In this document: positions 17,821 to 29,303 of the stretch, piece by piece
How positions within the stretch are numbered: the first letter of the stretch is position 1
How the letters are laid out: each line of letters begins with the position of its first letter
IMG/VR virus record: IMGVR_UViG_3300031269_000067
Coordinates: 1-29,303 of that record
Length of the DNA: 29,303 bases
Source of the DNA: a virus
Strand: one strand, 5' to 3'
Notes under the pieces: generated by a model
Databases searched by the model: none
Told to the model about the DNA's origin: nothing
Seen by the model: the letters and a program-made list of their open reading frames with translations, nothing else
Position numbers and translations under genes: made by a program

Positions 17821-18393
17821 CTACAGTCGAATTACATTACCAACTTCAAGTTCTGGGATATGCGTCACCATAATAAACTGAATGCCAAGTTCGCTTGAAA
17901 GTAAATTAAGCATGGAGGCGACTCTTCCCCTGTATGTTTTAGATAGAAACTTAAAGGGCTCATCTAGTATTACTGCTCTCCTTAGCGGTGGTCTAGAAAC
18001 CATTAAGCAAGAAATACGCAAGGCAAAGGCTGCTATATCAACCGCACCACCACCACTCCCCGCCATAGGGTCAACTTCTTCCCCATTACGGATGAAGACA
18101 AGCTTTGCTTCTGTTTTTCCCCGTTTTTGTTCAAAGATAATACTAAACTCGTAAGCTTCTTCCTCAAATATAGTTTGCAGGCATTTAGTGACAATACTAC
18201 TTATCTTCTTATGCGCTTTCTCTTGGACTATGGTGGCAACGGTCTGTGCAATGGCATTAGCATCATCCGCCCACTCTACTTTTAGTGCAGTTTCTTCTAA
18301 GAACTCTTGTTCACGCTTTACATCACGTTTAGCCAACAAAAAGTCTTCATAGAGATTTTCTACAATTTCGCTTATATCAGATACCGAGCTCAT
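17821..18393 (-). CDS. SbcC/Rad50-like ATPase, C-terminal half (separate gene)
   Basis: A 190-residue protein. Residues 1-60 are a short coiled coil (LAKRDVKREQEFLEETALK). Then comes the ATPase C-lobe: signature motif SGGGAVDIAAFALR (113-126), Walker B RRAVILDEPF with Asp144 and Glu145, and the H-loop MVTHIPEL with His178. There is no Walker A and no zinc hook. Both are in the separate gene at 19984-21030, and the two together (538 residues) match the size of a T4 gp46-type protein. They should assemble into one ATP-driven DNA-end processing complex with the SbcD-like nuclease. The ATG overlaps the end of the coiled-coil gene by 17 bases. It is the last gene of the leftward operon. Confidence 0.85.
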   Translation of the reverse strand: MSSVSDISEIVENLYEDFLLAKRDVKREQEFLEETALKVEWADDANAIAQTVATIVQEKAHKKISSIVTKCLQTIFEEEAYEFSIIFEQKRGKTEAKLVFIRNGEEVDPMAGSGGGAVDIAAFALRISCLMVSRPPLRRAVILDEPFKFLSKTYRGRVASMLNLLSSELGIQFIMVTHIPELEVGNVIRL

Positions 18394-18622
18394 CTTTGTA
18401 TTTTTCTTGGAATGCTTGTGATTTTTCGTTAAAGGCCTCTTCTGCCTTGTCCCGCTCTTTTTCTTTTGTTTTTAATAGGGCTTTGGCCTCTTTAGCAGTC
18501 TTAACGCCAAATGTTTTCTTGAGGTCTTGGAGGGCATTGCTGTAAGCCCCTTTAGCGTTGTCAACTTCGGATTGCTTTGTAGCAATTTTTTCTTTTAGTT
18601 TATTGAATTGTTCTATCTTCAT
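18377..18622 (-). CDS. Small coiled-coil protein next to the split SbcC genes
   Basis: An 81-residue protein that is almost entirely charged helix: KLKEKIATKQSEVDNAKGAY, then a break at TFGVKTAKEAKALL, then KEKERDKAEEAFNEKSQAF. This is a two-helix coiled coil with a short turn. It overlaps the DUF3310 stop (ATGA) before it and the SbcC C-terminal gene by 17 bases after it. It could supply part of the returning arm that the short coiled coil of the C-terminal half lacks, or act as an independent partner. That link is inference from place and composition. No catalytic motif, signal or membrane segment is present. Confidence 0.6.
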   Translation of the reverse strand: MKIEQFNKLKEKIATKQSEVDNAKGAYSNALQDLKKTFGVKTAKEAKALLKTKEKERDKAEEAFNEKSQAFQEKYKDELGI

Positions 18623-19059
18623 AATGCTCGTAATAAGTATGTTCTTGCTCTGCGTAAAAATGCTTTTGTTGCCCCGTGCCTATGGCATCTTATAAGGGCA
18701 TGAATCGCTGTTTTGATGTTTTGGTCCTTAAACCCACCAACAATGCTAGAGCAATTATCTTTCAAGAAAAATGCAACCTCTGTTGGCACTTGTATTTGAA
18801 TAACTTGCGCATTCAACATAGGGTATTCTTTTGGCAAACGGCTTCGCTGCCATTCAGCATCTTCATTTAAGTGGCGGTTGATATACCAAATAGCTTTGTT
18901 AATGTCTTGGGTTGCTAGGTCTTTTTTAAGCCCCGCCCTCCATACATATTTAATTGCATTACCAACATTGAAACCAAACCATTGACAAACGTCGATACAT
19001 TCAATTCCGCTCTTGTGCTGGTTGTAGTGTGTGGGGTTACTTACTTGTTCTGTTTTCAT
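18619..19059 (-). CDS. DUF3310 protein
   Basis: A 146-residue protein with the clear DUF3310 pattern in its first 65 residues: NPTHYNQHKSGIECIDVCQ, then GNAIKYVWRAGLKK, then DINKAIWYINRHL. The family is widespread in phages near nucleotide metabolism and replication genes; it is sometimes labelled nucleotide-kinase-like, but no reaction is firmly known to me. Residues 80-146 form a second, basic helical part with no recognised domain (RCHRHGATKAFLRRARTYLL). The ATG overlaps the SbcD stop and its own stop overlaps the next ATG, both as ATGA, placing it inside a tightly coupled SbcD-to-SbcC run. Confidence 0.82.
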   Translation of the reverse strand: MKTEQVSNPTHYNQHKSGIECIDVCQWFGFNVGNAIKYVWRAGLKKDLATQDINKAIWYINRHLNEDAEWQRSRLPKEYPMLNAQVIQIQVPTEVAFFLKDNCSSIVGGFKDQNIKTAIHALIRCHRHGATKAFLRRARTYLLRAL

Positions 19060-19994
19060 TTATTTTCTGTTATGTCTAGTAGTATTTTTTTGACGTGTTT
19101 ATTTACTTTTTTATCTTTGATGTATTTAATTAAAATTTCTACAAAATCTAGGCCGTTGCTTTCTGCACTTTCAAGCTCTTCTATAAAACCGCTAACGTCA
19201 ACACCATCAATCTCCCCTACCATATCGCGCAGGGTGTGTGGGTTGATAAAAACATCCTTTTCGCAGTCTAGGTAAACTCTTTCTATGCTACCATCATTAA
19301 AAAGCAAACCCATTGATGGCGTGGAGTTTATTTCGTCTGATTTGCGCCTCATGAAACCGCCATTGTTCAATATAGTGGTTGCACCGCTTTTTATCAAGAA
19401 GCCTTTGTGGTTATCTCCAAATAAAGCGGCATCGTACCCTTTAAGTTTCTTTTTGTAAGCTACGGCATTTTGTGATTTAGAAGCCCCCGTGTAGGTGTTC
19501 TCTTTGTGCCAGCAGTAAGCGTGAATTACAGCTAAGTGAATTACGCCTTTTGCAAACGCGGAACTTGTTTGAGGCTTTATGGGAAAACCCCATGGAAATC
19601 CATGTAAAACCAATTTACTCTCTTTTACATAAATAGGCTTGTCAGGTTCTACCAGTTTAATGCACCCCCCTTTAACAAGAACTCCAAAGGCACTACCGTC
19701 CATTGCATCATAGTCATGGTATGGTAGGTCGTGCTGCCCAGGAATAGCGTAGTCATCTTTTAAGTAGTCCCATGCCATATTTATTAAGGTGCTGGATTCT
19801 TTTTCTCGTGATTTGTCAAATATGTCACCACCTATAATTCCAGGTATTGAATGCCGTTGTTTGAGATCAGCCCACTGTTGTAGGTAGGACTCTTGCCTAC
19901 CAAGCCAATTTTTTTCATTGCTACGGGCAATGGGGGGAGTGGCTGATAAGTGAATATCACTTACTAGGGATGCAATTGGTTTTTTAGTGCTCAT
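19056..19994 (-). CDS. SbcD/Mre11-like metallophosphoesterase nuclease (gp47-like)
   Basis: A 312-residue protein with the calcineurin-type phosphoesterase motifs in order: VSDIHLS (Asp13, His15), IIGGDIFDK (Asp57), PGQHDLPYH (Gln87, His88, Asp89), VIHAY (His158) and FGDNHKG (Asp194, His196). The usual Asn of GNHD is Gln here. Together with the SbcC-like ATPase it should trim DNA ends and hairpins with manganese, feeding recombination-dependent replication as T4 gp46/gp47 do. It lies between the two SbcC half genes and overlaps the upstream half by eleven bases and DUF3310 by four. The C-terminal part after residue 240 is the region expected to bind the ATPase coiled coil. Confidence 0.88.
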   Translation of the reverse strand: MSTKKPIASLVSDIHLSATPPIARSNEKNWLGRQESYLQQWADLKQRHSIPGIIGGDIFDKSREKESSTLINMAWDYLKDDYAIPGQHDLPYHDYDAMDGSAFGVLVKGGCIKLVEPDKPIYVKESKLVLHGFPWGFPIKPQTSSAFAKGVIHLAVIHAYCWHKENTYTGASKSQNAVAYKKKLKGYDAALFGDNHKGFLIKSGATTILNNGGFMRRKSDEINSTPSMGLLFNDGSIERVYLDCEKDVFINPHTLRDMVGEIDGVDVSGFIEELESAESNGLDFVEILIKYIKDKKVNKHVKKILLDITENK

Positions 19995-21030
19995 GTTCTA
20001 CTTCGCTTCCGCAAAGGGGGCATACTCCCTTTGAATTAAGTTTTAACTCTTCTTTAAGTTCTTCTAGTATTTGTTGTTTTTCTGTGATAGTTTGTTTTAG
20101 GGTTTCACATGATTGTATGCAATCCCCTAGCCTCGCGCACTGTTCTTTACTTTCTTTGTAAGCTATCAACACGTCGCCCAGCAAGGTGCAGCTTTTTTGC
20201 ATCTGCTTTACCACGTCCTCTTGTTTGAGTGTTTCCTGTAAATCATGCAAATCATCGAGCTTTTCTTCTAATTTCAAGCAGGTTTTGTTTAGGGCTACCA
20301 GCCCCTCGCCTAGCTCTACTACAATACCGCCGCCCTGCACTACCGATCCGGCGCGTTTGCCCCTCTCTCGGTGCCTATGTAGCTGCCCTATGCCCTCGGC
20401 TAATTGTAGGGCATCCTGGCGGGTAGTCAACATAACCCCCTCGGCCTCGAGCACTACGTCCCACTTTTCTTTAACAACCTCAATAAAGCTTAAATCATCT
20501 AAAGCTTCCTTTGCTTTTAGTAACCGTCCTTCTGTTACAGCAAATTCACTCTTACGCCTTTTTAGAAGTGAGTGGGTTTCTTTAAGGGTTACATCAATTA
20601 CGCCTAGGTCAATTATTTCGTTCAATTGCCTACTAACCTCCCCCGCACTCTCACCAAACCAATATTCATTGTCATGCTGTTGGTGGATGTTTATTTTATT
20701 GATGCACAAAAAGTCTTGAATGGGATCAGGTACCTTAGCCCCAAAAGCCTCAAATAATTCATCGCCTAGTTGGTATTGGTTTTCTTTGCTACTTTTCTTT
20801 CTTGTTAGGGTTACTTTTTCTGAAAGCCTTATTTTAACCTCTACCTCATCAGTGCCCCATGCCTTGAACCCGATGCCTCCAGGTGTATTTCTCAAGCACC
20901 ATACTAAAGATCTTACAATAGAGGATTTTCCACAATCTGTGGGTCCCACTATTACGTTGACACCTTTAGTAAAAGACAGTTTTAGGTTTTTATGCTTTTG
21001 AAAGTTTTTTATTTTTGCACCTAATATCAT
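19984..21030 (-). CDS. SbcC/Rad50-like ATPase, N-terminal half ending at the zinc hook
   Basis: A 348-residue protein. The ATPase N-lobe has a Walker A motif GPTDCGKSS (29-37) and a Q-loop IHQQHDNEYW (about 115-124). A long coiled coil runs from about 150 to 330. The zinc-hook motif CPLCG has cysteines 337 and 340, and the protein stops seven residues later. In ordinary SbcC, Rad50 or gp46 the hook is in the middle of the chain, followed by the returning coil and C-lobe. Here those are encoded separately at 17821-18393. This is a clean gene split rather than decay: the stop overlaps the SbcD start, and both halves keep all expected motifs. Start and stop codons overlap both neighbours. Confidence 0.87.
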   Translation of the reverse strand: MILGAKIKNFQKHKNLKLSFTKGVNVIVGPTDCGKSSIVRSLVWCLRNTPGGIGFKAWGTDEVEVKIRLSEKVTLTRKKSSKENQYQLGDELFEAFGAKVPDPIQDFLCINKINIHQQHDNEYWFGESAGEVSRQLNEIIDLGVIDVTLKETHSLLKRRKSEFAVTEGRLLKAKEALDDLSFIEVVKEKWDVVLEAEGVMLTTRQDALQLAEGIGQLHRHRERGKRAGSVVQGGGIVVELGEGLVALNKTCLKLEEKLDDLHDLQETLKQEDVVKQMQKSCTLLGDVLIAYKESKEQCARLGDCIQSCETLKQTITEKQQILEELKEELKLNSKGVCPLCGSEVEHEH

Positions 21031-21410
21031 TTTGGTTTACTCCAGATTAAATCATCGTTTTCTTCTTCAAGCGTACTTATATTTTTTCTTATGTATTTGT
21101 GTAGTTTGTCAGTCACTTTGTGTTGTAAATGGCTATGCCATAGCCAATGCAGGTAATCGGCAGGGACGTCTTGTAGCATTTTGCCTTCATACTTTCCAAA
21201 GTCTATTATACTTGTGTCTGTCAAATCCTCGCTTGTAGGGGCTTGTATGAGTTTTTTTCCTAGCTCCGCAAAATCTATTTTTGTGCATAAAGCATTCAAG
21301 CCCATAAGTATGTCTTGGGATACTGTCGAGTCATCTGAAAACACTACAGTGATCCTTTTACGTTTACTGTCTTGCTTATGGGTTTTTACGTATATGTCTT
21401 TAATGTGCAT
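21027..21410 (-). CDS. ExoX C-terminal-like / DUF3820 protein
   Basis: A 127-residue protein. The key segment, about residues 66-92, reads TSIIDFGKYEGKMLQDVPADYLHWLW, split here as IDFGKYEGK and DVPADYLHWLW. It matches the small domain found at the C-terminus of exodeoxyribonuclease X and in DUF3820 proteins. No exonuclease domain (DEDD motif) accompanies it, so it is a stand-alone accessory domain, probably binding nucleic acid or a repair partner. The N-terminal 60 residues are basic and then beta-like (KRKRITVVFSDDSTV). It overlaps the SbcC N-terminal gene by ATGA, suggesting it belongs to the same repair unit. Confidence 0.65.
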   Translation of the reverse strand: MHIKDIYVKTHKQDSKRKRITVVFSDDSTVSQDILMGLNALCTKIDFAELGKKLIQAPTSEDLTDTSIIDFGKYEGKMLQDVPADYLHWLWHSHLQHKVTDKLHKYIRKNISTLEEENDDLIWSKPK

Positions 21411-23605: not shown

Positions 23606-24499
23606 CTATATATCCCAGAATGTTTTTGTTTTTCCTTTAATAAGGGTTCCCTGTGTGGGTAGTAGGCTCTTAAAACCAAGCTCCTTACACATAACAGTGA
23701 AGCCTTTTTGGTTGTATGCGTCTTTCTTTATTTTGCAACGCTTGGTTCCCTCTAGGGGCAGCTTTACAATGGGAAGGTTAGTGGCTATGATGCCATTTTT
23801 ATTATCAAGGTCTTGTGTAACATCTAAAAACTTTTTGCCGCTACTTATCTCTCCGCGCAAAAACTTCGCAGCCGTAAGCTCACCGACACCTTTAATGCCT
23901 TTTACCTCATCACTTGAGCACCCAGCTATAGCCTTCACCATAGCCCACTGGGGGGCTTCAATGCCCCACTCATCTTCAAAAGACTCTTCTGTTACAATTT
24001 GGTCTCTTTTATTGGGGTTATAGAAATCAACATTAGGCCGCAAGCATTGATACATGTCCTTGTCCGCCGTAACAATAACCGCCTTATGGTTCTCTGGGAC
24101 ACGGGCAGCTATATCGGCAATCACGTCATCACCCTCGTAGCCTTTTTGGTAGAAGACGTTGCTAAAACCTATCAAGGCCAGCCACTTGTCTCGGAGGCCA
24201 TCTATTTGGTCGTGTAGGGCTTCTCTAAGTAACTGCTTTTCTTCATCCTCATTGGCTTTTTCGTCTTGTCGTTTTTGCTTATAGCCATCATATAATTTAT
24301 AGCGTTTGCCGTAACCATAGTCAAAGCAAAACAACATACGCTTAGTATTGAAACGGTTGCAAAGCTCTTGGCAATCCTTGATAAAGCCGTAAATAACCCC
24401 TGTCGGCTTCCCCCCAAAGGCTAGCCCCTCCATGCTATGGAAAGCCCTATGACAGAGGAAACTTACGTCAATGATTAAGTATGTGTTTTGTTTAGTCAT
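23606..24499 (-). CDS. FEN/PIN-type 5'-3' exonuclease (T4 RNase H-like)
   Basis: A 297-residue protein from ATG 24499; upstream in-frame codons fall inside the recombinase gene. Acidic metal-binding residues appear in family order: Asp11 in IIDVSF, Asp60 in FCFDYG followed by the basic GYKQKR region, GYEGDD (Glu122, Asp124, Asp125), VTADKD (Asp146, Asp148), then the helix-hairpin-helix region CSSDEVKGIKGVGELTAAKF (Asp197). The enzyme would remove RNA primers and 5' flaps, working with the polymerase and SSB encoded upstream. It overlaps the recombinase stop by eight bases. The length is close to that of T4 RNase H and similar phage enzymes. Confidence 0.88.
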   Translation of the reverse strand: MTKQNTYLIIDVSFLCHRAFHSMEGLAFGGKPTGVIYGFIKDCQELCNRFNTKRMLFCFDYGYGKRYKLYDGYKQKRQDEKANEDEEKQLLREALHDQIDGLRDKWLALIGFSNVFYQKGYEGDDVIADIAARVPENHKAVIVTADKDMYQCLRPNVDFYNPNKRDQIVTEESFEDEWGIEAPQWAMVKAIAGCSSDEVKGIKGVGELTAAKFLRGEISSGKKFLDVTQDLDNKNGIIATNLPIVKLPLEGTKRCKIKKDAYNQKGFTVMCKELGFKSLLPTQGTLIKGKTKTFWDI

Positions 24500-25634
24500 A
24501 TTTGCGCTTTCTGTCGGCGAAGTCCTTACCAATAAGTTCTTCAATCTCGTCCCAGCAGTCTTGCACCACTTCACGAAGGTCTGTGTAAAGGTCTTCCTTC
24601 TCAATGTGTGTTATTAGGTCCTTACGGTTGCCCTTGAACTCAAGCTCTTCGGCGTTAATGATTTGCCCAGACTTTTTCCAATACCCCTCCCCCAGGAGGT
24701 AGTCAATACAAGAGCCAATATCATCTATACCAAACTTACGGTATATGGGAATCTCCACAGTACCAGTGTTCCCTGAGTAGCGGTTCTTGGCAAAAACCAC
24801 TCTAGCTATGGTCCCTAGCTTGCGTGATTTCTTTTTAATCTCCTTAGTAAGCATTTTACCCACTGAGATCCAAATCTCTATGTTAGCGTAAAATTTAAGC
24901 GCCTTACCACCGCTTCTTGTTTTCTTAGGATCAAACAAACCACCCCCTACATTATCTCTTGTTTGGGATAGGATGATAAGTATGCACCCATGATCAGCGA
25001 ACTTCTTACAAGCTGCGCGTAAGTTCTCTGAGTGTTTCTTCGCCTTACCATCCCCATAGCTCCCTGTGAATTCTTTTCTCTTAGCCCTAGCCTCTTTTTG
25101 CTCTTTTGCTTTGTCAAGTTCGTAGTCACTTGTAAGACCATTCTCGGAGTCAAGCACGTAAATAAATGGTCTACCATGCCCCTCTACTTTTTTCTTAGTC
25201 GTACCCCCCCGCTCGGTACGGCTCCCCCCTAGCATGTTGATAAAAGCATCGTCCATGTTGTCGTAGAAATCCTCTACCCTATCACTCACCCCATTGTGGG
25301 GGGCAACTATACGGGCGCTGGCTTTCTTACCAAAGAAGAATTTCATATCAAAGTGAGCCCCATCTTCGCTATTATCAAATATAAAGTCGTAGTTATCAAA
25401 GTTGGGGTTTTGGTTGGCCTCTGCTAGGCATGTAAGTGTCAGGATAGTTTTACCAGCACTAGAGTCACCGATGATAAAGTGGTAGCCACCTTTAACGTAG
25501 AAAGCGTCTGTCCTTCCTGTGGCGGTTAAATTCATTAACGTGCAACCAGAGTCTAGTACTGTGTTGTCAGTTATTTTAAGTTTGAACGGTTTATTTTTAG
25601 CCGCTTTAATCAATGCTTCTTTTGTACTTGCCAT
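24492..25634 (-). CDS. RecA/UvsX-like recombinase
   Basis: A 380-residue protein. Walker A is GDSSAGKT (56-63), the Walker B strand is FIYVLDSENGL, and the later IILSQTRDNVGGG followed by SGGKALKFYANIEIW corresponds to the RecA L2 region, where G-G-x-A-L-x-F-Y/H is typical. The protein should form filaments on single-stranded DNA and drive strand exchange. A highly charged insert (KEQKEARAKRKEFTGSYGDGKAKK) lies at the L1/L2 side. The SSB and UvsY-like candidate upstream, and exonuclease and SbcCD downstream, make a full T4-like recombination set. A terminator separates it from the SSB gene, so its level may be set by read-through. Confidence 0.88.
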   Translation of the reverse strand: MASTKEALIKAAKNKPFKLKITDNTVLDSGCTLMNLTATGRTDAFYVKGGYHFIIGDSSAGKTILTLTCLAEANQNPNFDNYDFIFDNSEDGAHFDMKFFFGKKASARIVAPHNGVSDRVEDFYDNMDDAFINMLGGSRTERGGTTKKKVEGHGRPFIYVLDSENGLTSDYELDKAKEQKEARAKRKEFTGSYGDGKAKKHSENLRAACKKFADHGCILIILSQTRDNVGGGLFDPKKTRSGGKALKFYANIEIWISVGKMLTKEIKKKSRKLGTIARVVFAKNRYSGNTGTVEIPIYRKFGIDDIGSCIDYLLGEGYWKKSGQIINAEELEFKGNRKDLITHIEKEDLYTDLREVVQDCWDEIEELIGKDFADRKRKYD

Positions 25635-25686
25635 AGGTGTCTTGTCGTTAGCCTCGAACTTGATAGAGGCAGTTATGTTTTATGTA

Positions 25687-25721
25687 GAAAAAGGAGGCCT
25701 AAAGTTTCCTAAAGGCCTCCT
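25687..25721 (-). terminator. Intrinsic terminator between SSB and recombinase genes
   Basis: On the - strand, AGGAGGCCT (25721-25713) pairs with AGGCCTCCT (25700-25692) and TTTT follows. It lies 34 bases after the SSB stop and 53 bases before the recombinase start. Confidence 0.75.
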
Positions 25722-25755
25722 GTTGTGATTTTCATCTACTTACTGAGTGGAATTG

Positions 25756-26931
25756 CTAGTCCCAGTCCTCATCCTCATCCTCATCCTCATCCTCATCCTC
25801 ATCCTCATCCTCATCCTCATCCTCATCCTCATCCTCATCCTCATCGGGTTCTGGTTCTGGTTCTGGTTTTTTGGCCTTACCCTTACCCTTCTTTTTAGGC
25901 GCAGGCTCTTCCTCTTCCTCTTCCTCTTCTTCACTAGCGGCTGTTACCGCTTTACGAAGCTTTTTGAGGCCGAGTTTATTGTCCTTGAAGTCATCCACGT
26001 CAACATCAAGCTCATTGTCCTCGATGTATTCTTCAAGCTCGTCACGATCCATGTCGTCAACGTCTTTTTCGGATTCTTCCTCCTCTTCGGGCTCTTCCTC
26101 CTCGTCCTCGTCCTCCTCTTCCTCGGGGTCTGGTTTTTTGGCCTTACCCTTCTTTTTAGGCGCAGGCTCTTCCTCTTCCTCTTCCTCCTCTTCCTCGGCA
26201 TTGCCACCGTCGGTTTCAAGGAGTTTGGCTTGCAAGCTCTTGTAGCTCTCAACCTTTAGGAGCTCATCCAAGCAATGCACTTCATCCAAGATAGATTCTT
26301 CATAATCCTCACGGCGTGGCTTGAAGTCAATGCTAACAACCTCGTAGTACTTGAAGCTACCAAAGCTTTTCTCCTCCACACCACACTTGAGGCTAAAACC
26401 ACCATCAAGTTCTGCGAAGCGTTCGTAGCCATCATCCTCATCGCTATCATCAAGGCGTTTGGCAAGAAGCTTGCCAAACAGGTGAAAGCTAATGTCCCAT
26501 ACTTGGATGCCAGCTTCCTTGTCCTTGAGATTGCGCACGTTGAACAATTGGCGTTGCTTTGGCGCAAGGTCTTTGATCAGTTGCTCGTCACCACCATCGG
26601 CGGTAAGTTTAGCGCGATACTCACAGATAGGGCATTTGCCGCCACTTTGCTTCTTAGGGCACACGTAGCTGTCGCTCTCTGCCCCAATACCACGGTGAGC
26701 CCAGTATGTGGTTTCATACCAATAGTCACCATTCTCAGAGTTCTTGTTACCCTTACCCGCTTTAAAGGGTAAGATGTCAATCAAGATGGTTTTGGCATCT
26801 TTAAGCTTGAATTGCTTAACGCCATCGGGGAGAGCCAAGACTGTATCGTCAAAGCCCCCTGCTCCCATCTTTGCTGCTTTTTCCTTTGCGCGGTCCGCAA
26901 GGAGTGATTTCTTTTTTGTTTTCTTAGCCAT
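25756..26931 (-). CDS. gp32-like single-stranded DNA-binding protein with giant acidic tail
   Basis: A 391-residue protein. Residues 1-235 form a T4 gp32-like core: a basic N-terminal arm (AKKTKKKSLLADRAKEKAAKM) for cooperative binding and a zinc site with His79, Cys91, Cys100 and Cys103 (gp32 spacing H-x12-C-x9-C-x2-C; here 11, 8 and 2). Residues 237-391 are an acidic, low-complexity tail, far longer than in gp32. It is built of two copies of a poly-Glu/PAPKKKGKAKKP block (about 246-268 and 334-356), a small SAP-like helical piece between them (about 294-330), three Glu-Pro units and 13 Asp-Glu units. The acidic end of gp32 recruits partner proteins. The C-terminus DWD is strongly acidic with one aromatic residue. 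Confidence 0.85.
   Translation of the reverse strand: MAKKTKKKSLLADRAKEKAAKMGAGGFDDTVLALPDGVKQFKLKDAKTILIDILPFKAGKGNKNSENGDYWYETTYWAHRGIGAESDSYVCPKKQSGGKCPICEYRAKLTADGGDEQLIKDLAPKQRQLFNVRNLKDKEAGIQVWDISFHLFGKLLAKRLDDSDEDDGYERFAELDGGFSLKCGVEEKSFGSFKYYEVVSIDFKPRREDYEESILDEVHCLDELLKVESYKSLQAKLLETDGGNAEEEEEEEEEEPAPKKKGKAKKPDPEEEEDEDEEEEPEEEEESEKDVDDMDRDELEEYIEDNELDVDVDDFKDNKLGLKKLRKAVTAASEEEEEEEEEPAPKKKGKGKAKKPEPEPEPDEDEDEDEDEDEDEDEDEDEDEDEDEDWD
25768..25845 (-). repeat. Hexanucleotide tandem repeat, 13 copies, inside SSB gene
   Basis: Thirteen perfect copies of CTCATC on the + strand (GATGAG on the coding strand) encode alternating Asp and Glu. Copy number can change in steps of one unit without breaking the frame, so length variation by slippage is expected. 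The three TTCTGG units at 25849-25866 next to it encode Glu-Pro. Confidence 0.95.
25862..26190 (-). repeat. Pair of near-identical direct repeats in SSB gene
   Basis: A segment of about 60 bases at 25862-25928 recurs at 26130-26190 with one six-base insertion (ACCCTT, adding Lys/Gly codons) in the first copy. Both encode a Glu run followed by PAPKKKGK and KAKKP. The block between them encodes the acidic and SAP-like parts, so the tail looks like a duplicated module. Confidence 0.85.
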
Positions 26932-27007
26932 ATTGTTCTTTATTTGGTGTTACATTTATAAATGCAATGCTTAATTGCTTGCACCTACCTATCGGTTTGT
27001 CAACGGC

Positions 27008-27460
27008 CTAGCTGCGGCCTCTTCTACTAACTGCTTTGTCTCTCTTAGCCCCAGTGTCTTTAGTTGGTTGGTCGCTATAGTAGGACATAGAGTAAAGACG
27101 TATTTGGCCTGTAATTGCCTCACGCTTTGCGTTAATGGCATTTGAGGCGGCGTAAAGTATATCACACCGCTCCTGCCATATTACTAATTTTTGTTTCAAT
27201 TTAACTAAAGCAGGTTCTCCCTCAACGACTGTTTTGATAGCACCCTCATTGAGGTTACGTATCCCATACTCGTCATGGTCTTCCCTTACCTTAGCTGTGA
27301 TCTCTGCCCTAACAATGTCAATTTGAATTTTAACCTTGTCACGCTCTGCCTTAGCCCTAGCAAAGCCTTTACCATACTTGAAGGTAAGGTTGGCTTGCTT
27401 ACTAACCTCATTCTCGAGGTTATAGGCGTCTAATTCAAAGTCTTTTTCGTTGGCTTTCAT
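27008..27460 (-). CDS. UvsY-like recombination mediator candidate
   Basis: A 150-residue helical protein from ATG 27460; an upstream TTG at 27481 is less likely. Segments LENEVSKQANLTFKYGKGFARAKAERDKVKIQ, broken by short turns, then NEGAIKTVVEG, then ILYAASNAINAKREAITGQIRLYS and YYSDQ near the end. This helical layout with a late A-x-x-x-R-K/E-x-L motif resembles small phage proteins annotated as UvsY-type mediators, which load recombinase on SSB-coated DNA. Position directly upstream of the SSB gene, with the recombinase next, fits. The basic C-terminal tail (DKAVSRRGRS) could contact DNA. The identification is from pattern and context, not from an alignment. Confidence 0.5.
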   Translation of the reverse strand: MKANEKDFELDAYNLENEVSKQANLTFKYGKGFARAKAERDKVKIQIDIVRAEITAKVREDHDEYGIRNLNEGAIKTVVEGEPALVKLKQKLVIWQERCDILYAASNAINAKREAITGQIRLYSMSYYSDQPTKDTGAKRDKAVSRRGRS

Positions 27461-27549
27461 TATAGTTAGGGGCGTCAGCAATAGAATTTACCATTACTAT
27501 CTTTAGTGTATTTGTATTTGGAAACATATTATTTATTTCGGTTTGTGGT

Positions 27550-28503
27550 TTATTCTGCTAGTCCGTTTATTACTTCGTAGCAGGCTGCGGTAAGACCCGC
27601 CTTTTTACTATCATAGAAATTATCTCTAAAGGCTACAATGACACTATAAGCACGGTTGCTCATCTTACCACCTTTGAGCAATAGGCTATTAGCTGCGCCT
27701 AGAACCATGTAGCGGATGCTCTCGGGGTCTTCCTCTATAGAGGACAATACCTTACTAACATCACTCCAACTAGCCCTAGGGTTATAAATCATTACTTTGC
27801 ACAATTCAAAGGCGGCAGCTTTGATGTCATTTTGTGAAATGGCTTTTAATTGCTCGGCCTCTGTGTCAAGCCCAATAATACTATTAAGCACCACCATCAC
27901 TTTTCGGCTACTAGCCAACTTACCACCATCAATAATACTTGCCTCATAGATGGCCTCTGATACATCCTCAGAAATGGTAACGCCCTCTTTCTTTGCCGTG
28001 TCCATTATAAGGGCATCCGCATTTGCTTGGCTAAGTGCTTTTACTTTGATCTCCGTGCAACGGGTCTTAATTGTGGCTAGGAGCTTTTGTGGGTCTGTCG
28101 TGCATAGCATGAAGTAAACATGCTCGGGGGTATCCTCTAGGATTTTAAGGAAACTGTTTTGGGCATCCTTTGTCATGGCATGGCACTCATCCACAAGGTA
28201 GATCCGTACACCACCCGTATTCATAGGGGCAAGCCCCATCGTGTCCTTAATAGAACGCACCATATCAATGCCCCGTGTCTCTGAGGCATTGATCTCTTTA
28301 AAGTCTCCTTTGTGGCACTTTAGCTTCTTTTGTAAGATACGGGCTATGGTCGTTTTACCACACCCCGAGGGTCCTGTGAATAGAAGGCTATGGGGTATGC
28401 CCCCACCTTTACCCATTTTAGCCAATGCCTTTACAGCATCTTCTTGCCCCACTAGGTCTTTGAAAGATTGTGGCCTGTGCCGTTTATATAGTTCTGTGCT
28501 CAT
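27550..28503 (-). CDS. Sliding clamp loader ATPase subunit (gp44/RFC-like)
   Basis: A 317-residue protein from ATG 28503, where the family N-terminus STELYKRHRPQSF begins. ATG 28572 is in frame but would add 23 proline-, glutamine- and lysine-rich residues. AAA+ motifs are GPSGCGKTT (44-52), Walker B LVDECHAM (Asp105, Glu106), sensor 1 in MLCTTDP (about 135), and TRC (147-149) in place of the SRC motif that contacts neighbouring subunits. A sensor 2 region with GGKLASSRK lies near residue 192. The size equals T4 gp44 (319 residues). No zinc finger of the DnaX type is present. It should open and close a sliding clamp for the polymerase encoded directly upstream. Confidence 0.85.
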   Translation of the reverse strand: MSTELYKRHRPQSFKDLVGQEDAVKALAKMGKGGGIPHSLLFTGPSGCGKTTIARILQKKLKCHKGDFKEINASETRGIDMVRSIKDTMGLAPMNTGGVRIYLVDECHAMTKDAQNSFLKILEDTPEHVYFMLCTTDPQKLLATIKTRCTEIKVKALSQANADALIMDTAKKEGVTISEDVSEAIYEASIIDGGKLASSRKVMVVLNSIIGLDTEAEQLKAISQNDIKAAAFELCKVMIYNPRASWSDVSKVLSSIEEDPESIRYMVLGAANSLLLKGGKMSNRAYSVIVAFRDNFYDSKKAGLTAACYEVINGLAE

Positions 28504-28575
28504 TTTTTGTTTATACTGATATTGGTGCTTTATCTTTGGTGGTGCGCTTTTCGGTGGTGCCATTCCTCCCATATT

Positions 28576-29303
28576 TTACCTTTCTTTTTTTAGTGTCAAT
28601 TTGTGGTCTTTTCTCATTCCTTTACATAGGGCTATATGGTTGTCGTAAGTGCACACCTTATTATCGTTTCCACTATAAAAGGAATACTTACCTTGGCATT
28701 GAATCTCGTTTTTGTAGAACCAGCTACTACCATTAGGCGCAATCTCAACCTCAATATCAAGTGGCACAATAAGCCAAGGGGCAAATTTCTTAATATCTTC
28801 CGTCATTATTTGCCTAGCCATAGCAATAACATCGTCCATCTCTAGTATGTTGAAATCGAACACAATAGAGTCATGGATTTGGCCTATAATGACGGTTTTC
28901 ATTTTATTCTTACGCAACCACTCATTCACCCTAATAAGCGACCAAAGGAGGCAATGAAACGCCGCCCCTTGCACGGGGTAATTGATTACATTGTTACGCT
29001 TGAATATACCCCCACAACGGAAGCCTGTGTGCATATCAAAGTAGCCCTTCTTGAGGTATGTTTTAAATAAATCCTTGCGCCATTGCCCGTAAACTTTGAA
29101 ACGCCTATTCCAGAAGTCATCTTCTACCTCTTTGATATGTTTTTCAAACGTATTGCGTTTTGGTTTCTCCCTAGGGCTTAGCTCACCTATACTGTGAATA
29201 CCTTTTGCGCGTAAGTGTTTATCAAGGCTAACCCCTGCGGCATTTGTGAGCTTTTGTTGGTGTATGGCATCCCATAAGTTCCTAGTGACAGAGATGTAAT
29301 AAT
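28576..29303 (-). CDS. Family A DNA polymerase, C-terminal part (5' end outside window)
   Basis: The frame is open to the right edge, giving about 241 visible residues of the C-terminal polymerase domain. NNVINYPVQGAAFHCLLWSL is the conserved N-x-P-x-Q-G helix of the palm, and IGQIHDSIVFDF contains motif C (His-Asp), where Asp is a catalytic metal ligand. The stretch upstream (KVYGQWRKDLFKTY) matches the fingers-to-palm linker in phage PolA enzymes. After the usual end (IAPNGSSWF) there is an extra tail of about 45 residues with several Cys, Tyr and Lys (KYSFYSGNDNKVCTYDNH), which is not typical. The polymerase would replicate the phage genome with the clamp loader and SSB downstream. Confidence 0.9.
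   Translation of the reverse strand, partial: YYISVTRNLWDAIHQQKLTNAAGVSLDKHLRAKGIHSIGELSPREKPKRNTFEKHIKEVEDDFWNRRFKVYGQWRKDLFKTYLKKGYFDMHTGFRCGGIFKRNNVINYPVQGAAFHCLLWSLIRVNEWLRKNKMKTVIIGQIHDSIVFDFNILEMDDVIAMARQIMTEDIKKFAPWLIVPLDIEVEIAPNGSSWFYKNEIQCQGKYSFYSGNDNKVCTYDNHIALCKGMRKDHKLTLKKER

Follow-up and report, generated by a model that had tools for sequence, protein, structure and literature searches.

The 29,303-base virus record IMGVR_UViG_3300031269_000067 of IMG/VR, analysed here at its full length (the window), contains phage tail genes and, on the minus strand, separate genes for the two lobes of a Rad50/SbcC-like ATPase with a Mre11/SbcD-like gene between them. We consider it probable, at roughly 85%, that these genes encode a phage Mre11-Rad50 (SbcCD) complex in which Rad50 is made as separate chains. 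As judged from the sequences, this is a natural and conserved split of the Rad50/SbcC ATPase into two lobes at the zinc hook, and a small unannotated helical hairpin protein is likely to be a part of the split complex. The genes and motifs under consideration are listed below.

19984..21030, minus strand: N-lobe half of the Rad50/SbcC-like ATPase, 348 amino acids, with Walker A, Q-loop, a helical arm of about 190 residues and a C-terminal CxxC
20923..20946, minus strand: Walker A motif GPTDCGKS of the N-lobe, residues 29-36
20008..20022, minus strand: half zinc hook CPLCG, residues 337-341 of 348, with 7 residues remaining after the motif
19056..19994, minus strand: Mre11/SbcD-like nuclease, 312 amino acids, with motif III GQHD and motif V GDNH; 11-base overlap with the N-lobe gene
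18377..18622, minus strand: helical hairpin protein (mini-coil), 81 amino acids, with predicted helices 3-38 and 43-74
17821..18393, minus strand: C-lobe half, 190 amino acids, with a coil-like N-terminal segment of about 55 residues, signature, Walker B, D-loop and H-loop
18046..18057, minus strand: variant ABC signature SGGG, residues 113-116 of the C-lobe
17941..17970, minus strand: Walker B and variant D-loop ILDEPFKFLS, C-lobe residues 142-151
17860..17862, minus strand: H-loop histidine, C-lobe residue 178

The first-pass annotation of this DNA had proposed listing how often the two halves occur as separate genes in this order. That survey was run in IMG/VR, and the arrangement proved to be widely conserved, with 71 representatives. 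A first scan with the window C-lobe as query gave 74 loci; a second scan with a C-lobe alignment gave the best 80 of 204 relatives. Two of these 80 were known before, and of the remaining 78, 36 come from contigs that the first scan had not hit. The C-lobe was the productive query, as the window N-half retrieved only a near-identical contig from IMG/VR; a second IMG/VR contig encodes N- and C-lobe proteins that are 100% identical to those of the window. The family comprises 81 distinct systems, 78 of which are distinct by their N-lobe, as the C-lobe is cut or broken in three copies, L066, L075 and L083. The representatives have C-lobe identities below 80% and do not include these three copies. 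Since the family was gathered with the window C-lobe and the motif LDEPFK[FH], the share of split systems among all phage Rad50 was not estimated. The alignments leave out two short fragments of 57 for the C-lobe and one of 54 for the N-lobe, and use 37 of 53 SbcD and 50 of 51 mini-coil sequences.

In all 71 representatives, four separate genes for the N-lobe, SbcD, a hairpin protein of about 82 residues and the C-lobe are located on one strand, with 884-3156 bp from the N-lobe stop to the C-lobe start. The order N-lobe, SbcD, coil and C-lobe was found in 65 of the 74 loci of the first set, plus one more with the C-lobe frame in two pieces, while eight were without upstream members (three with the C-lobe only, three with SbcD, coil and C-lobe, and two with coil and C-lobe). 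The same order was found in 65 of the 78 loci of the second set, where nine were without upstream members, L146 and L156 had an extra or displaced coil match and L142 and L143 had none. Counted per contig over both scans, all four genes are present in 94 of 110 contigs, and separate N-lobe and SbcD genes were identified in each of the 90 contigs that contain the C-lobe and at least 5 kb upstream. No open reading frame (ORF) joining the N- and C-lobes was seen in either locus set. In the first set no ORF matched two models, and the sole two-model ORF of the second set, in L146, matched the C-lobe model and weakly (3.1e-5) the coil model. Chance is excluded as the source of this layout. In the window, the downstream order on the minus strand is N-lobe, SbcD-like, DUF3310 (146 amino acids), 81-amino-acid gene and C-lobe; the first pass had named the DUF3310 gene, along with SbcD, as lying between the halves; it is not part of the module and was rejected as a component, with only three ORFs matching DUF3310 in the first locus set.

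The N-lobe gene was found just as it had been described in the first pass, with Walker A, Q-loop, coiled coil and an end 7 residues past CPLCG. In a Pfam scan, the window N-lobe matched AAA_23 at 4.8e-12 and Rad50_zn_hook at 0.009, under the cut-off of that family. The best match to the N-lobe profile among solved structures was a Rad50, 3aux, which we take to be the M. jannaschii entry. Residues G29, G34 and K35 of Walker A and Q118 of the Q-loop are invariant in the 71 representatives. The AlphaFold2 model of the window N-half has a predicted local distance difference test score (pLDDT) of 84.9 and a predicted template modelling score (pTM) of 0.46, with breaks at 180-181 and 269-277, and a Foldseek search ranked Rad50 1f2u_A first (E 2.0e-6). 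SMC proteins have a hinge domain where Rad50 has the CxxC hook; among the window proteins the Pfam scan detected no SMC hinge family, and CxxC is found at the arm end instead.

The C-lobe gene likewise contains the short coil, signature, Walker B and H-loop ascribed to it, but the signature is a variant. The window protein matched phrog_15167 'ATPase' at 2.1e-20. Positions 24-203 of the 204-position family profile aligned to Rad50 chains of the PDB at 8.4e-17. Among solved structures, 3qkr_B, 1ii8_B and further chains of archaeal Rad50 were its best matches, and the top matches include Rad50 heads solved as two separate chains (3qkr A/B, 1ii8 A/B, 1f2t A/B). Walker B LDEP with the catalytic Glu is present in all 71 C-lobes and the H-loop His in 67. 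Canonical Rad50 has the signature SGG(E/Q) and a D-loop Asp, both of which act across the dimer. In the profile alignment, the C-lobes have SGGG where Rad50 has SGGE, with the last Gly in 71 of 71, and the position of the D-loop Asp is taken by Ser in 62 and by Asp in two; the canonical forms were thus not found in the C-lobes, while SGGE and LD were seen in the alignment of PDB chains. In the motif comparison, neither half holds a full ATP site, but the N- and C-lobes together do.

The SbcD family profile matched Mre11 3auz (E 3.2e-12). The canonical metal ligands of Mre11 are located in motifs I-V, and DxH, GD, HD, H and the final H are retained in 70-71 of the 71 partners. The Asn of motif III is replaced by Gln (GNHD to GQHD) in 51 of 71 and the first His of motif V by Asp (GHxH to GDxH) in 69 of 71; the GNHD form of motif III is seen in T4 gp47. 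By its aligned motifs, the putative SbcD/Mre11 partner carries family-specific changes at the metal site.

The break had been placed exactly at the zinc hook, and comparison with a single-chain Rad50 agrees with this. As reference we used a Thermoplasmata Rad50 (L169, an 896-amino-acid frame of which 610 amino acids are held in the locus), in which the best stretch matched by the N-lobe model ends at residue 167, just past the hook CPTCGRPL (158-165). The C-lobe model starts at 403, which leaves about 235 residues between the two models without a gene in the split family, although two weaker coil stretches of the N-lobe model also match within 174-453. In the split family, CxxC is found 2-20 residues before the N-lobe C-terminus (median 6) in 70 of the 71 representatives, and near the C-terminus in 80 of the 81 distinct systems. 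The commonest hook form is CPLCG (25 sequences), and the tail after the hook is shorter than 4 residues in one sequence only, where it has 2. There is a Gly at position +1 after the hook in 43 of 70 tails; of the 69 tails long enough to have a position +4, 51 carry L, I, M or V there. These positions correspond to Gly448 and Leu451 of P. furiosus Rad50, which are part of the zinc-folded hairpin, and 14-residue hook peptides of that protein alone form a Zn(peptide)2 complex, according to the available part of the text (PMC5093744). The N-lobe tail thus appears to keep what a zinc dimer needs, and usually little more. In L038 and L145, two loci on one contig, the N-lobe C-terminus CPIHKCVCPIEG replaces the hook, with cysteines in other spacing.

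The two-chain picture of the first-pass annotation stood with regard to the lobe split but not as a complete list of parts, since it missed the hairpin protein with its near-constant length of about 82 residues. The 81-amino-acid protein of the window is predicted with high confidence to form a helical hairpin (AlphaFold2, helices 3-38 and 43-74, mean pLDDT 97.2). Of the 90 contigs with a C-lobe and 5 kb or more of upstream sequence, 88 have the hairpin gene. Among the representatives this gene always shares the strand of the N-lobe, SbcD and C-lobe genes (71 of 71), and in 54 of 71 its stop is no more than 60 bases from the start of the C-lobe gene. The hairpin profile shows a weak kinship to the C-lobe coil (hhalign E 3e-4, probability 39%) and a weaker one still to the N-lobe arm (probability 11%). 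A fold search with the hairpin model gave no match with E below 0.001, and PHROG scans of 50 members gave only scattered weak matches. The small coil genes before the C-lobe in two GenBank phages, vB_BboS-125 (gp34) and Mvi-JY20, matched the hairpin model weakly, at 4.2e-5 and 2.8e-5 in a comparison against five proteins with all filters off, and the gene preceding the C-lobe of phage Magritte gave no match to it. No mini-coil gene is recognisable in the split systems L142 and L143; in L143, merely 148 bases separate SbcD and the C-lobe.

The idea of a clean two-chain cut at the hook held for the cut site but not for the return arm on the C-half. The greater part of that arm has no coding sequence, and the conserved Gln of the C-lobe is preceded by only some 56 residues in every arm-length class. 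We measured arm length from the residue aligned to D146 up to the hook in 70 representatives, dropping L038 as it has no CxxC. Three classes were obtained, of 139-149 (n=15), 176-195 (n=48) and 229-248 (n=7) residues, with means of 144, 187 and 238 and no arm at 150-175 or 196-228. The hairpin protein and the C-lobe coil are nearly constant in length across these classes, and arm length is correlated neither with mini-coil length (r 0.01) nor with C-coil length (r 0.10). The hairpin protein is therefore not simply the severed return strand. On a quick tree of C-lobe plus SbcD, in which 28 of 67 inner branches were unresolved, the classes need 16 changes as compared to a mean of 20.4 after shuffling (as low in 2 of 200), so the classes are mildly clustered yet often switching. 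Near neighbours on the tree differ in their arms, such as L052 with 236 residues and L144 with 189, or L013 with 141 and L119 with 182. In the short and mid classes, peaks of Pro and Gly point to joints some 37 and 86 residues away from the head and 56-61 away from the hook; the long arms, of which there are seven, are too few to give clear peaks. Self-comparison of the profiles for a fixed arm repeat showed no clear lag near 47 (z 1.5, short class only), which is why we claim length classes rather than a proven sequence repeat; in the hydrophobic autocorrelation of the arm, 47 and 44 are among the top lags, with 10, 7 and 17. These patterns suggest that the arm consists of helical segments that are gained or lost one module at a time. 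An improbable extension is that the family gave up the covalent return arm, that several hairpin copies clamp the modular arm like tiles replacing the missing strand, with the number of modules setting arm length, and that the arms meet at zinc-linked free C-termini.

Searches of 50,697 GenBank phage records with five N- or C-lobe queries (tblastn, E 1e-3) identified split-family relatives in six records, which represent five phages: Bacillus phage vB_BboS-125, Microcystis phage Mvi-JY20, Microbacterium phage Magritte, Tunturiibacter phage Tunturi_5 and the uncultured phage LR745208. The lobes are separate genes in all five and far apart in two. In Tunturi_5, the C-lobe is located at 19.3 kb on the plus strand and the N-lobe, near SbcD, at 127.9 kb on the minus strand, more than 100 kb apart; in Magritte, the C-lobe is gene 2 (annotated as 'exonuclease') and the N-half gene 155. 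A marginal match of 55 residues was seen between the Magritte N-half and the RecF-like protein of Escherichia phage RCS47 (2 records). In one scan of 84,980 bacterial and archaeal genomes with one motif, three relatives were found, and all three genomes also hold frames of 896, 688 and 481 amino acids that weakly match the C-lobe model. The contig of one of the three, L081 (QMSR01000001.1, binned in a Thermoplasmata genome; 36,312 bases, as in IMG/VR 3300013103_000031) is probably a virus contig.

Several alternatives concern whether the halves belong together at all. A decayed gene or an assembly error has a negligible probability: nothing in the window speaks for it, and among its relatives L075, from the first locus set, is a broken copy whose C-lobe lies in two overlapping frames, whereas the 71 representatives share the same layout and invariant catalytic residues, with SbcD between the halves. 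The earlier view that this is not a frameshift wreck is thereby upheld, and frameshift, pseudogene and assembly error are ruled out by conservation. Programmed frameshifting or hopping to a fused product is not credible either, because SbcD is located between the halves and the genes are far apart in Tunturi_5 and Magritte. That same distance could be read as a sign that the halves do not cooperate and that the N- or C-half partners another ATPase, for example a host SbcC. This is very unlikely, since each half is without motifs found only in the other, and in 71 of 71 representatives both are on one strand with 884-3156 bp from the N-lobe stop to the C-lobe start. Furthermore, in 28 of 28 records, Tunturi_5 and Magritte included, the C-lobe profile matches one place and the N-lobe profile one gene, at one or more points along it; LR745208 alone has a further weak match to the N-coil (3.2e-4), in a different frame of 1,127 amino acids. 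The single-chain SbcC profile phrog_77 matches in 26 of the 28 records, mostly at the N- or C-lobe genes; elsewhere it matches weakly and with its coil region, in W01 at 7.8 and 45.0 kb and in G003 at 53.8 kb. Among the 28 records, some of which are possibly fragments, we saw no further full-length SbcC encoded by a phage. An N-half that acts with a different full-length protein, the case named earlier as one that would overturn the two-gene reading, was thus not seen in these records, hosts being outside the test.

Other alternatives accept the split but arrange the arm differently. In a three-piece Rad50, the return strand would be formed by the mini-coil and the C-lobe coil, placed end to end on an extended arm that has the hook at its apex. 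The short-arm class fits this, in that its mean of 144 residues (n 15) about equals the sum of mini-coil and C-coil (83 + 56), and the weak alignment of the mini-coil and C-lobe profiles over the coil points the same way. We nevertheless find it quite doubtful, as the mini-coil is predicted to be a hairpin rather than one long helix, neither coil follows the length of the arm, and the two coils combined fall far short of 55 of the 70 arms. Alternatively, the N-lobe arm may fold back, so that CxxC would be part-way along the arm and not at the apex, clamping something besides a second apex. The low-confidence break at 269-277 in the AlphaFold2 model, between helices 182-268 and 278-333, and the Pro/Gly joints of the mid and short classes are in line with this. 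The model has a pTM of 0.46, however, and turns at each joint would be expected to flip the hook between proximal and distal positions as modules are added; we regard a folded-back arm as unlikely.

A number of observations weigh against a split Rad50 that works as one complex. Most of the return strand is without an encoded counterpart. SMC heads rank close behind Rad50 in the Foldseek search with the N-lobe model. The signature and the D-loop, which act across the dimer, are altered, so that the heads may dimerise on ATP in a different way or weakly. The hook is less well kept in the most diverged members: in L038 it has become CxxxxCxC, and the Magritte N-half (L080, gene 155) is without any CxxC. 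Lastly, the correlation of N- and C-lobe distances (r 0.70) does not exceed the one between the C-lobe and SbcD (0.75) and can be explained by linkage alone, and since all genes of the module are correlated the mirror-tree test is uninformative.

For a Rad50 made as separate chains, the following scheme may be envisaged. On the N-lobe chain, Walker A and the Q-loop would be followed by the outgoing arm and, at the free C-terminus, by a zinc-hook hairpin; the C-lobe chain would bring the signature, Walker B and H-loop. The two lobes would pair non-covalently into one ABC half-site, probably held together by SbcD and by the N-terminal coil of the C-lobe, which would pair with the base of the N-lobe arm. 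ATP would bring two of these heads together as a dimer, the tails of two N-lobe chains would share one zinc ion, and the hairpin protein may pack on the arm as a third structural subunit. The complex would then resect DNA ends for UvsX-type recombination-dependent replication, which by analogy with T4 gp46/gp47 is the most likely role; the annotation of the T4 record ties these two proteins to recombination and host-DNA degradation. The neighbouring genes of the window (23606-29301, minus strand) encode a 5'-3' exonuclease, a UvsX-like recombinase, a single-stranded DNA-binding (SSB-like) protein, a UvsY-like mediator, a clamp loader and the end of a DNA polymerase. This T4-like recombination and replication set co-occurs with lambda-like tail genes. 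Directly upstream of the N-lobe gene (21027-21410, minus strand) is a gene for a protein of 127 amino acids with weak ExoX C-terminal-like and QSregVF_b matches.

In single-chain Rad50 the two antiparallel strands of the arm belong to one polypeptide, and the question is how ATP events at the head are passed along them to the hook. The split family has no covalent turn, lacks most of the second strand and has kept the hook hairpin nearly to the last needed residue, and it thereby offers a natural test of whether the return arm must be one continuous chain. Head, arm and hook are here separated genetically, a separation that is normally engineered, and the four proteins of 348, 312, 81 and 190 amino acids are suited to structural work. 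The results also indicate that phrog_16465 'exonuclease' and phrog_15167 'ATPase', which are annotated apart, are halves of one enzyme.

We compared the split family to known systems. The first-pass annotation knew of no described phage system with this layout, and none was apparent from the titles and abstracts of the papers among the matches listed, most subscription papers and bioRxiv being beyond the reach of that search. A term search of the main text of the vB_BboS-125 genome paper found no mention of SbcC or Rad50. T4 gp46/gp47 is likewise a phage-coded Rad50/Mre11 pair, with relatives in 3,283 of the 50,697 phage records (E 1e-5) as compared to six for the split family (E 1e-3), but gp46 is one chain, with its hook CPTC at 288 of 560. 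The N-lobe model matched gp46 only weakly (1.2e-7, two proteins, all filters off) and the C-lobe model not significantly, so that a close kinship in both lobes was not found. Archaeal Rad50 of P. furiosus and M. jannaschii, with Mre11, shares the motifs of the N- and C-lobes, a CPxCG hook with a hydrophobic residue at +4 and a Mre11-type partner, but is a single chain with a return arm, whereas the split family has separate lobes and an altered signature and D-loop; the antiparallel arm of the single-chain protein was not recovered, as no ORF holds both lobes and the return arm is largely absent. In the two-chain Rad50 crystal heads (1f2t/1f2u, 1ii8, 3qkr), which we take to be engineered co-expression constructs, the lobes are also separate polypeptides, chains A and B. 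These have little or no arm, while the split family is natural and has an arm segment and a hook. Among viruses, Mimivirus R555 and its relatives also have a non-canonical architecture of this complex, namely a Mre11-Rad50 fusion and thus the opposite of the Rad50 fission in the split family, according to the portion of the article available (PMC3175470). In the accessible sections of an overview of 224 jumbo phages (PMC7824862), SbcC and SbcD are listed as conserved and no split SbcC is mentioned; the same sections describe a split DNA polymerase III (PolIII) alpha subunit and split RNA polymerase beta/beta' subunits in jumbo phages, which provide a precedent for enzymes encoded in pieces, some of them from distant genes.

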